A stretch of 64,000 nucleotides of DNA, taken from positions 1 to 64,000 of the forward strand of contig NZ_SSOC01000007.1 of assembly GCF_004801295.1 (NCBI RefSeq), in the 5' to 3' direction. Positions 10,722-31,417 of this stretch are shown one piece after another. The stretch is from Pseudothauera nasutitermitis. Its GTDB lineage: Bacteria; Pseudomonadota; Gammaproteobacteria; Burkholderiales; Rhodocyclaceae. The position numbers and the translations under genes are program-made. The notes beneath the pieces are model-generated. The model had not been told where the DNA came from and did no database searches. It saw only the letters and a list, made by a program, of their open reading frames with translations. Position 1 is the first letter of the stretch, and every line of letters starts with the position of its first letter.

Positions 10722-11081
10722 ATGGACAACCGCCTATTCCGCCGCCGCTCCATCTCCATCAACTTCCGCACCTTCGACCAGGCGGACGACCGCTTCCTCG
10801 GCCGTCTCGGCGACCTCAGCCCGGGTGGCTTCATGCTGTACGGCACAGAGCGGATTCCACTCGACAAGCTGTACGACCTGCGCGTGGATTACCCCGACGA
10901 AGCCGGCAAGCCGCGCAGCGCGCACTTTTCCGCCAAGGCCGTGTGGTCCGGCGTCGACCTGAATCCGGATCTGCTGATCACCGGCTTCCGCTTCTACGAC
11001 CTCGACTCCCCCACCACCCGCGCAGCCCTGCATGAACTGCTGCACCGCTTCACCGTGGGCGAGGAACACGAAGAGGATTAG
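10722..11081 (+). CDS. PilZ domain protein (c-di-GMP receptor)
   Basis: A 119-aa single-domain PilZ protein. The c-di-GMP motifs are present: an arginine-rich RRRS near the N-terminus and DLSPGG (the DxSxxG signature) near residue 30. An AGGGAG site 10 bases upstream favours ATG 10722. ATG 10695 overlaps the transglycosylase stop codon and would add 9 residues. It is the only free-standing c-di-GMP receptor in a window with three diguanylate cyclases. Confidence 0.85.
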   Translation: MDNRLFRRRSISINFRTFDQADDRFLGRLGDLSPGGFMLYGTERIPLDKLYDLRVDYPDEAGKPRSAHFSAKAVWSGVDLNPDLLITGFRFYDLDSPTTRAALHELLHRFTVGEEHEED

Positions 11082-11166
11082 GGCATGCCGCCGCTATCCG
11101 CGGCCGGTGTGAGCACGTCCTGATCCGGAAAGCGCCGACCAGGGACACCCCGGCCGGCGCCCCGCT

Positions 11167-11751
11167 TCAACCGGCGGCGGCCACCACGCGCGGCGGCGCG
11201 GCAGCCTCGCGCTCCGGCGTACGCCCGGTCTGCTGCGCGGCGGACAGGGACTGCACGTCGCCGGAGATCTCTCCACCTTCCTCGATGAAGATCTTGCCGT
11301 AGCGGATCTTGCCGCTGACCCGTCCGGTGGCATGCACGATGAGCTGCTGGCGGGCGGTCAGCTCGCCGTCGAAACGTCCGTGGATTTCCGCCACATCGAT
11401 GCCCACCGTGCCGGCGAACGCGCCGTTCTCGGCGATACGGATCACCCGGCTGTCCATCGTCGCCTCCACCCGGCCTTCCACCACCAGGGTGTCGCAATCG
11501 AGAATCTCGGCGCCCTTGAGCTTGACCTCGGGGCCGACGATCAGACGATTGCCGCCGGTCTGCACGGCCGCCTCACTGCTCTTCGGCGCCTCCGCCGGTT
11601 CGGGCGCCGGTACGGGATCGCGCGCCACCGTGGTCGAGGAAGCCCCCGCCAGATGCGCCGGCGTACCGCCCGAAGGCGTGGACACGGTACGCACGCCGCG
11701 CGCGGTCTGGGGTTCCGGGGTCTTGGGGAACAGAGCGGGCTTGTTGAACAT
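11167..11751 (-). CDS. Bactofilin (polymer-forming cytoskeletal protein)
   Basis: A 194-aa bactofilin. A proline-rich N-terminal arm (about 1-65) is followed by the DUF583 right-handed beta-helix (about 70-165; NRLIVGPEVKLKG, VRIAENGAF, GRFDGELTARQQLIVHATG). Bactofilins self-polymerise without nucleotide and organise wall synthesis, stalks or polar complexes. CAGGAGAG precedes ATG 11751; the frame continues upstream but with no better start. It is transcribed divergently from a sigma-54 activator and has a sigma-54 promoter motif 60-74 bases upstream. Confidence 0.9.
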   Translation of the reverse strand: MFNKPALFPKTPEPQTARGVRTVSTPSGGTPAHLAGASSTTVARDPVPAPEPAEAPKSSEAAVQTGGNRLIVGPEVKLKGAEILDCDTLVVEGRVEATMDSRVIRIAENGAFAGTVGIDVAEIHGRFDGELTARQQLIVHATGRVSGKIRYGKIFIEEGGEISGDVQSLSAAQQTGRTPEREAAAPPRVVAAAG

Positions 11752-11810
11752 GATCTCTCCTGAAGGTGTGTCCGGCGCCCGGAGCGCGCGCCGCGAACCG
11801 CTTTCCCATG

Positions 11811-11825
11811 GCAAGGGCCATGCCA
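11811..11825 (-). promoter_or_regulatory. Sigma-54 (-24/-12) promoter of the bactofilin gene
   Basis: The minus strand reads TGGCATG-GCCC-TTGC, matching the RpoN consensus TGGCACG-N4-TTGC at 10 of 11 fixed positions with exact GG-to-GC spacing. It predicts a transcript start near 11799 and a leader of about 48 bases. Because the element is partly palindromic, the plus strand also reads TGGCAAG-GGCC-ATGC (11809-11823), a weaker sigma-54 match facing the activator gene. Confidence 0.75.
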
Positions 11826-11900
11826 CCCAGGAAATTTCCTTTGCATTCATGGTTTTGCCCAAACACATCGAAGCCAACAGACGGCCCCGGATGCTGAAAC

Positions 11901-11987
11901 CGTCGCCCAGTCGCGACAAAGCACTTCAAATAAAATCTTCAAAGCAATGAAAATAAACGATTTTTTGAATGTCTCCAAACAGCGACA
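11901..11987. promoter_or_regulatory. Two candidate activator-binding sites (TGTC-N10-GACA type)
   Basis: CGTC-N10-GACA at 11901-11918 and TGTC-N10-GACA at 11970-11987 share the same half-sites and spacing, 69 bases apart. They sit about 90-165 bases upstream of the bactofilin -24 element, a normal distance for a sigma-54 enhancer. E. coli GlrR, the closest family match to the neighbouring activator, binds TGTC-N12-GACA. Confidence 0.45.
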
Positions 11988-12032
11988 AGTCGTTTCAGGG
12001 AAACATTGCCTTGCACTTGCTTACCCAGTCGC

Positions 12033-12049
12033 GTAGGTGCTCCACCTAC
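12033..12049. repeat. Perfect inverted repeat upstream of the activator gene
   Basis: GTAGGTG-CTC-CACCTAC, 7-bp arms and a 3-base loop, 50 bases before the activator ATG. It overlaps the -10 of a weak candidate promoter (TTGCAC 12011, 17 bases, TAGGTG 12034). It could be an autoregulatory operator or a leader hairpin. Confidence 0.4.
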
Positions 12050-12100
12050 ACTGCTCCGCACCCTTCCCCCACCCGCAGCACGCCCATCGCCCCTATTCCC

Positions 12101-13495
12101 ATGATCGATTCGTCCGTCCGCCCGTCTCCCGCGCACCTTCTGCTGGTGGACGGCGGCCACGAACCGGTCGCGGCACTCGCCGCCACGCTCGTCGCGCACG
12201 CATACCGGGTCGATCGCGTCACCGACGCCGGCACCGCGCACACGCACTTGGCGGCCCGCCACTACGACCTGCTGCTCAGTGCCACCCGCCTGCCCGCCGG
12301 GCACAGCGGGCTGGCGCTGTTCGAAACGGCGCGCGCCCGCCATCCGGCCCTGCCGACCATCCTGCTGGCCCAGCCGGGCAGCATCGCCGAAGCGGTGGAT
12401 GCGGTATCGCGCGGGGTCTCCGGCTATCTGCCCGCCCCCTTCGAACCGGCCGCACTGCTCGCACAGCTTGCCCAGGCCCTGCGCTGGCGCGGCGACGGCG
12501 GCACGCAGCGGGACGCCTGGCGCACGGACATCGTCAGCCGCAGCACGCACATGGCCCGTTTGCTGGAAGAAGCCCGCCTGGTGGCTGCCACCGAGGCCAG
12601 TGTGCTGATCCATGGCGACAGCGGCACCGGCAAGGAACTCCTCGCGCGCGCCATCCACCGCGCCAGCGCACGGGCAAACGGCCCCTTCATCGCGGTGAAT
12701 TGCGCGGCGATTCCGGAGCAGTTGCTGGAATCCGAACTGTTCGGCCACCGGCGCGGCGCGTTCACCGGCGCGGTCAGCGACCAGCGCGGGCTGTTCCGCC
12801 AGGCACACGGCGGCACGCTGTTCCTCGATGAAATCGGCGACATGCCGCTGCCCCTGCAGGTCAAGCTGCTGCGCGTCCTGCAGGAGCGCGCGGTGCGCCC
12901 GGTGGGCGCCGGCAGCGCCGAGGCGGTCGACGTGCGCATCCTCTCCGCCACCCACCGCGATCTGGAACGCGCGCTGGCCGAGGGGCGCTTCCGCGAGGAT
13001 CTGTACTACCGCCTCAACGTGGTCGGCCTGCATCTGCCGTCCCTCGACGAACGCCGCGAGGACATCCCGCTGCTCGCCGCGCATTTCCTCGCCCAGGTGG
13101 CGCAACGCTACGGCCGTCCGTGCCGCGCGTTCGCCACCGATGCGCTGGAACTGCTGGCCACCGCCGCATGGCCGGGCAATCTGCGCCAGTTGCAGAACGT
13201 CGTGGAACAGGCCTGCGCGCTCAGCACCTCAGCGCTGATTCCGCGCGCCCTGGTGGAGCGCGCGCTGCAGCGCAGCGGCGCGGTCTCGCTGAACTACGCG
13301 GAGGCCAAGCAGCAGTTCGAGCGCGACTATCTGGTCGGCCTGCTCAAGCTCACCGCCGGCAACGTCTCCGACGCGGCACGTCTGGCCGGGCGCAACCGCA
13401 CCGAGTTCTACCGTCTGATGCAGCGCAACGCGCTGAGCGCGGAGCTGTTCCGCCCCGCCCAGGCCGGCGAAGGCAGCGGGCTGGCGTGGCACTGA
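12101..13495 (+). CDS. Sigma-54-dependent activator, GlrR/QseF-like, with degenerate receiver
   Basis: A 464-aa regulator in three parts. A receiver-like domain spans about 11-130. An AAA+ domain spans about 140-375, with Walker A GDSGTGKE (172-179), GAFTGA (219-224) and Walker B FLDEIGD (241-247). A Fis-type HTH closes the protein. The C-terminus (GNVSDAARLAGRNRTEFYRLM) is strikingly like E. coli GlrR. The receiver has lost its phosphorylation chemistry: the acceptor aspartate position is alanine (A61 in LLLSATRLP), the switch Thr/Ser is alanine (LLAQPGS), and the invariant lysine is alanine (YLPAPF). It is probably not controlled by phosphorylation. No kinase gene is adjacent. The earlier in-frame ATG at 11969 overlaps the putative operator and is less likely. 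Confidence 0.9.
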   Translation: MIDSSVRPSPAHLLLVDGGHEPVAALAATLVAHAYRVDRVTDAGTAHTHLAARHYDLLLSATRLPAGHSGLALFETARARHPALPTILLAQPGSIAEAVDAVSRGVSGYLPAPFEPAALLAQLAQALRWRGDGGTQRDAWRTDIVSRSTHMARLLEEARLVAATEASVLIHGDSGTGKELLARAIHRASARANGPFIAVNCAAIPEQLLESELFGHRRGAFTGAVSDQRGLFRQAHGGTLFLDEIGDMPLPLQVKLLRVLQERAVRPVGAGSAEAVDVRILSATHRDLERALAEGRFREDLYYRLNVVGLHLPSLDERREDIPLLAAHFLAQVAQRYGRPCRAFATDALELLATAAWPGNLRQLQNVVEQACALSTSALIPRALVERALQRSGAVSLNYAEAKQQFERDYLVGLLKLTAGNVSDAARLAGRNRTEFYRLMQRNALSAELFRPAQAGEGSGLAWH

Positions 13496-31160: not shown

Positions 31161-31417
31161 CTTGGCGGCTCGGCAAAAACCGGGATTCTACCGCCCCGGC
31201 CGGCGCACCGTCCCATCCGGTCCACCGGCGCCCGCAGGACCTTCCCGCGGCCCGCATGATCCCGGGGTATTGTTGACGGTCCCGGGCCACACCGCCATGC
31301 TGCTGTCGTAAACGTGTGACAGCCCGGCGCGGGAGTGCCGGTCCGGCGCATGCATGCATCGAACCGAAGTGGTCTGGAGCCGTGAGAAATCGTGAATCAA
31401 CGCTTGAAGGGCGCAGG

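Follow-up and report, generated by a model that had tools for sequence, protein, structure and literature searches.

Two questions are raised by the divergent gene pair near the start of a 64-kb stretch of Pseudothauera nasutitermitis DNA (the window, by which we mean the whole stretch that was analysed): what drives transcription of its bactofilin gene, and how could the regulator encoded next door do so when it has neither a kinase beside it nor a phosphorylation site? We propose, at a probability of roughly 0.8, that the neighbouring activator, a divergently encoded GlrR derivative, drives the bactofilin gene through a sigma-54 promoter and would now work without phosphorylation.

A predicted sigma-54 promoter and paired upstream sites

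An earlier note on this DNA had placed a near-consensus -24/-12 element at 11811-11825, 60-74 bases above the bactofilin start, and two TGTC/CGTC-N10-GACA sites between the divergent genes. All three are confirmed: the element is on the minus strand above the ATG at 11751, and the sites lie at 11901-11918 and 11970-11987 (Table 1). The gene product belongs to the bactofilin family (PF04519 at 63.4 bits, cut-off 27.9), and the bactofilins of relatives share its gene start and N terminus. Sigma-54 promoters carry GG-N10-GC at -24/-12 in a TGGCAC and TTGC context. The element at 11811-11825 has the GG-N10-GC in such a context and is conserved in relatives (in a scan of relatives that required the GG and the GC), with an equivalent element in each of the four genus relatives possessing the locus. 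The bactofilin promoter element is the sole match to the TGGCAYGNNNNTTGC pattern in the 64 kb, where 0.19 are expected and 16 of 100 shuffles give at least one. A start near 11799, as the earlier note predicted, agrees with the element if its last C is taken as -12.

Table 1. Features of the bactofilin-activator locus, in window coordinates
Feature	Position	Strand	Basis
Bactofilin gene, 194 aa, starts MFNKPALF	11167-11751	-	PF04519
Ribosome-binding site AGGAGA	11756-11761	-	read off the sequence
Predicted sigma-54 start (+1) of bactofilin	11799	-	inferred from the -12 GC at 11811-11812
Sigma-54 -24/-12 element TGGCATGGCCCTTGC (TGGCATG-GCCC-TTGC)	11811-11825	-	pattern match
UAS2, putative activator site, CGTC-N10-GACA, TGTCGCGACTGGGCGACG (plus strand CGTCGCCCAGTCGCGACA)	11901-11918	-	
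Weak IHF-like stretch TTTCATTGCTTTG, between UAS1 and UAS2	11940-11952	-	2 mismatches to WATCARNNNNTTR, hand count
UAS1, putative activator site, TGTC-N10-GACA, TGTCGCTGTTTGGAGACA	11970-11987	-	
GlrR/QseF-derived sigma-54 activator, 464 aa, divergent from bactofilin	12101-13495	+	NCBIfam GlrR NF011695
Pseudo-receiver domain, residues 14-123	12140-12469	+	Response_reg 39.7 bits
Sigma-54-interacting AAA+ domain, GAFTGA and Walker A GDSGTGKE	12530-13030	+	
Helix-turn-helix region GNVSDAARLAGRNRTEFYRLMQR, closely resembling that of canonical GlrR	13295-13432	+	alignment

UAS2 is separated from the -24 element by a gap of 75 bp, with its centre at about -110, and UAS1 lies 69 bp from UAS2, with its centre at about -179. 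The weak IHF-like stretch between them was judged against WATCARNNNNTTR, which we take to be the IHF consensus, and occupies the same place as better matches in some relatives; the window's module holds no IHF match with one mismatch or fewer. Both sites are of the TGTC-N10-GACA type, the motif given for QseF/GlrR in excerpts of two papers (PMC4987338; PMC8745638). Such sites alone are hardly rarer than chance, with 22 in the window at no more than one mismatch against 16.7 expected, and 53 exact TGTC-N10-GACA sites in the whole genome against 39 for a reversed control, and hence the case rests on their arrangement and conservation. The combination of two sites with a -24/-12 element occurs a single time in the 4.7-Mb genome. 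A single site plus promoter has five matches there against none for the control, four of the five being matches other than the bactofilin promoter. The genome's second bactofilin (C1:333747) has no -24/-12 element with two mismatches or fewer in the 6 kb scanned.

Two further blocks, at 12004-12027 (CATTGCCTTGCACTTGCTTACCCA) and 12045-12054 (CCTACACTGC), fall between UAS1 and the start of the activator gene, appear by eye to be conserved in the genus, and are perhaps the activator's own promoter. Outside the bactofilin locus, the window has another exact TGTC-N10-GACA site (TGTCGTAAACGTGTGACA) at 31304-31321.

Conservation of the module and its association with GlrR

A scan based on a bactofilin alignment covered 80 named loci, the top 80 among 524 confirmed relatives; judged by their titles, most belong to the Rhodocyclales. 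With the window and the genus member G005 these gave 82 upstream regions; site spacings of 60-72 and gaps of 60-95 were allowed. In this set (best 80 of 524 relatives, window and G005) a full module precedes 60 of the 82 bactofilins and at least one site with a promoter precedes 69, counts that come from related genomes and are not independent. In the modules found, the sites are 65-69 bp apart and a gap of 63-88 bp leads to the -24/-12 element, the site consensus from the 60 modules being approximately TGTCGC-N6-GCGACA. Where the match starts within the gene, as it does at a small number of loci, the region taken as upstream is displaced and a module could go unnoticed. IHF matches with one mismatch or fewer lie between the sites in 17 of the 60 modules, against a mean of 3.9 after single-base shuffling, and between UAS2 and the -24 element in 36 of the 60, against a shuffled mean of 6.7. 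Across 399 genomes of the order, the double-site pattern in its exact form matched 41 times, in 30 genomes; six of the 41 matches precede bactofilins, by the calls of a rough gene finder that must be in error for some of them.

The arrangement seen in the window is far beyond chance. A very improbable alternative is that its motifs are accidental and that a sigma-70 promoter serves bactofilin: it is true that single sites are no rarity in the window, but a chance origin of the module is rejected by its conservation together with its absence from all 1640 dinucleotide shuffles, its presence in one of the 1114 regions that precede other ORFs at these loci, and a reversed control with no match in the 399 genomes. 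A simple, crude scan of 11000-12150 likewise turned up no sigma-70-like promoter. The single control region that carries a full module is on the minus strand of locus L148, which has glrR and a bactofilin lacking the module.

Matches to both glrK and glrR are found in 53 of the 80 named loci (best 80 of 524 relatives), five have glrR alone and 22 have neither. In 52 of the 53 the pair lies upstream of, and divergent from, bactofilin, which argues that bactofilin is a conserved GlrR target, a predicted relationship of which we found no earlier report. RpoN control of a bactofilin, which the earlier note considered unusual, appears instead to be the common state among relatives; the real oddity is that the output half of a two-component system has outlived its input. 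The order tldD-glrR-glrK-bactofilin-slt-proS occurs in at least 17 loci (Thauera, Aromatoleum and kin). The window reads proS, slt, pilZ, bactofilin, activator, asmA and tldD, and since this matches the ancestral order, the locus is in the ancestral place with the kinase gene gone. The named genus loci (L083-L085) have no GlrK match either, and at L150 the glr genes are missing between tldD and bactofilin.

Co-occurrence was scored in 61 relatives with thresholds of 450 bits or more for GlrR and an E value of 1e-40 or less for bactofilin; two genomes whose best activator matches (317-329 bits) are not GlrR-grade, G003 and G028, were counted as lacking GlrR, and one with a weak bactofilin match (4.5e-14, G058) as lacking bactofilin. 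Both genes are present in 23 genomes, GlrR only in nine, bactofilin only in one and neither in 28 (Fisher p 2.7e-8, uncorrected for descent). The genomes with neither include G003, itself a Pseudothauera. Twelve of the 24 bactofilins of these relatives have the module, three have a single site and nine have none, the last group including that of the GlrR-less genome G043. Similarly, the bactofilins at L145, L150 and L154 lack the module and their genomes lack GlrR. At five loci (L113, L124, L140, L157 and L158) bactofilin is far from glrR and has the module, and a GlrR-grade protein (579-666 bits) is encoded elsewhere in each genome. The association is not complete: a full module is missing from 22 of the 82 upstream regions, 19 of which come from genomes that do have GlrR. 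One locus, L127, has a full module in a genome with no GlrR-grade protein (best 314 bits), which may reflect an assembly gap, and another, L104, has the module and glrK on a contig that ends there, GlrR not being found. The gene for sigma-54, rpoN, was present in all eight genomes searched.

A GlrR derivative without a kinase or a phosphorylation site

The divergent neighbour is, as had been noted, a GAFTGA-bearing sigma-54 activator (Sigma54_activat, 243.5 bits). The earlier note had neither its descent from GlrR nor the loss of its receiver phosphorylation site. GlrR NF011695 is its best NCBIfam model at 531 bits, followed by NtrC at 370, and it falls below the GlrR equivalog cut-off of 763 bits (the window protein being the only one scored). 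It has the AAA+ domain with GAFTGA and the GlrR-type helix-turn-helix of this family; a receiver with the phospho-acceptor Asp, Thr and Lys is lacking, as is a kinase gene alongside at the window locus. No Pfam helix-turn-helix model matches the region at 13295-13432, which is presumably of the Fis type.

The decay of the receiver is shared by all genus members that have the activator. In the window protein the alignment shows replacement of the second residue of the acidic pair, the phospho-Asp, the Thr and the Lys. Five of the six genus genomes have the activator (the window and four orthologues), and phospho-Asp, Thr and Lys are replaced in all five, while the acidic pair is broken in four and retained in G005. 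A change of the phospho-Asp to Ser was also considered and rejected, as the alignment has Ala there. Each of the five proteins has an intact Walker A and GAFTGA, and their mean identity is 41% in the receiver against 80% across the AAA+ domain and 77% across the helix-turn-helix region; in three canonical GlrR sets receiver identity is 78-88%. The Response_reg score of 39.7 bits in the window protein is accompanied by 48.1, 41.1, 24.0 and 25.6 in the orthologues, of which 24.0 and 25.6 miss the cut-off of 30.2, whereas the intact GlrR of the same genome scores 97.

Canonical receiver residues are present in 64 of 74 aligned rows, and the other ten represent seven derived proteins, three of them appearing twice; every GlrR row beyond these seven retains the residues. 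Besides the five genus activators, the derived set includes the proteins beside bactofilin in two other Zoogloeaceae, an Azoarcus MAG (L114) and Parazoarcus communis (L133), which have no receiver match at all, at loci where glrK is absent and the gene order is otherwise unchanged. In a tree of 71 GlrR-type rows without an outgroup (L083-L085, copies of L066, L067 and L077, were left out), the five genus activators form one clade (100/99) and the seven derived proteins need two changes. The proteins of L114, L133 and G002 are long branches, however, and their positions in the tree are thus unsure.

The description of the circuit as self-contained stands for P. lacus (G002), G005 and Parazoarcus communis, which keep only the derived GlrR: in these genomes the next-best match to GlrR reaches 327-333 bits, short of GlrR grade, and GlrK matches do not rise above background (82-88 bits), the completeness of the Parazoarcus communis genome not being stated. 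The window's own genome differs in having an intact glrK-glrR pair on another contig, C1. This second GlrR has all of the receiver phosphorylation residues and is 64-65% identical to the window activator, and a GlrK-like kinase gene lies upstream of it, with a short gene between that is taken by position to encode a QseG-like lipoprotein. An intact-length GlrR and a GlrK match accompany the derived protein in G000, G001, G004 and the L114 genome. Because the C1 pair is intact and its GlrR has a DNA-binding helix very similar to that of the window activator, cross-control of bactofilin is possible. We nevertheless consider it unlikely that the C1 pair is what drives the bactofilin promoter, with the neighbouring derivative as a helper, a competitor or a gene on its way out, since bactofilin, its module and the derived activator all persist in P. 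lacus, G005 and Parazoarcus communis, where there is no other GlrR and no GlrK, and since the derivative retains its ATPase motifs and the high AAA+ and helix-turn-helix identity given above. The C1 pair also has an adjacent candidate target of its own. In L069 (C1:160000-170000; region 546-1368) a PRC-barrel gene lies next to the intact glrK-glrR. It has two GlrR-type sites 66 bp apart, each with a single mismatch but in opposite halves, and 112 bp beyond them, at L069 742, a -24/-12 element; it is likely a second GlrR target, to judge from this arrangement. The idea that the derived activator requires an intact GlrR for mixed oligomers was rejected, there being no such need in genomes without one. 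The reading of the divergent gene product as a dedicated activator of bactofilin appears to hold.

A proposed phosphate-independent switch for a cytoskeletal gene

We suggest that in the ancestor bactofilin would have been an output of GlrK-GlrR (QseE-QseF), encoded in an operon divergent to it, and that in Pseudothauera the kinase gene at the locus would have been lost and the receiver would have lost its Asp, Thr and Lys. In the present-day locus, sigma-54 RNA polymerase would transcribe bactofilin from the element at 11811-11825, the GlrR-derived activator would bind UAS1 and UAS2, the DNA would loop, perhaps with the help of IHF, and the GAFTGA ATPase would open the promoter. This control of bactofilin by RpoN through the neighbouring activator, as the earlier note had it, is strongly supported, rather than proven, by the conservation of the module and by the published GlrR site.

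According to an excerpt on E. coli QseF, phosphorylation of Asp56 is needed for strong activity and a D56A protein has only partial activity, when overproduced (PMC6075780), and hence the derived protein must act without phosphate or answer to something else. It may be phosphate-independent and always on, set by its own amount, or responsive to another input. The receiver-less form arose on a separate branch, which favours phosphate-independent activity. It is possible, if doubtful, that the activator is not constitutive and that its pseudo-receiver, like that of FleQ, takes another input, for instance a small molecule or a partner protein. AlphaFold still predicts a receiver fold (block mean pLDDT 67-92 over residues 11-130, in a model of the whole activator with pLDDT 65.6 and pTM 0.41, from an input alignment that included canonical receivers), none of the five genus members has lost the domain, and FleQ itself offers a precedent, FleQ/FlrA being described in part of one account as sigma-54 activators with a receiver-like domain that cannot be phosphorylated (PMC10723142). 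However, the low receiver identity and Pfam scores are what relaxed constraint would be expected to give, and the proteins of L114 and L133 have no receiver match. FleQ is also of a different family, has other DNA sites and targets, and is controlled by FleN and c-di-GMP. For a phosphate-independent activator a comparison with the PspF type is apt in the case of the receiver-less proteins of L114 and L133. PspF lacks a receiver and is held by PspA.

As far as the excerpts consulted go, the locus resembles the enterobacterial GlrR/QseF targets glmY and rpoE P2 in its activator family, its sigma-54 promoter, its several upstream TGTC-N10-GACA-type sites and its envelope theme, and glmY adjoins the regulator operon much as bactofilin adjoins the activator (PMC6075780; PMC4987338; PMC8745638). 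Control of E. coli glmY is described there as involving QseF at upstream sites, IHF and sigma-54 (PMC6075780). The bactofilin locus differs in its target, which in those enterobacterial cases is an sRNA or a sigma factor, in that there are two sites 65-69 bp apart rather than the three of glmY, and in the missing kinase and phosphorylation site. In the open-licence literature we found no bactofilin linked with QseF or GlrR, and, in the parts of it available, no control of a bactofilin by sigma-54, rpoN or an enhancer-binding protein. The parts of two other accounts that touch on bactofilin regulation contain no paired-site sigma-54 module and no GlrR: in Rhodobacter sphaeroides NtrX has a ChIP peak at a bactofilin operon, with bactofilin not significantly changed in the NtrX table (0.06, P 0.99; PMC7240162), and bacA of Caulobacter goes up when cytoplasmic phosphate is low (PMC11208175).

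Our analysis adds a conserved, testable regulatory input for a bactofilin, little having been found on the transcriptional control of this protein, and ties it to GlrK-GlrR, whose known role in enterobacteria is in envelope homeostasis. Behind modules at other loci (L168-L208) seven non-bactofilin candidate targets, partly cut, gave Pfam matches to BON domains (three), EF-hands (two, one below the cut-off), a WecG glycosyltransferase (one) and nothing (one), which suggests a wider envelope regulon. Tentatively, and at somewhat less than even odds, the output side of an envelope two-component system may have been freed from its kinase at least twice in the Zoogloeaceae to become a private, phosphate-independent switch for a cytoskeletal gene, possibly with feedback from bactofilin or the state of the cell wall on the pseudo-receiver. 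The relatives form a natural series, from the intact system through a receiver without a phosphorylation site and no receiver at all to the joint loss of regulator and sites, that lets one study how a phosphorylation-dependent activator becomes autonomous.
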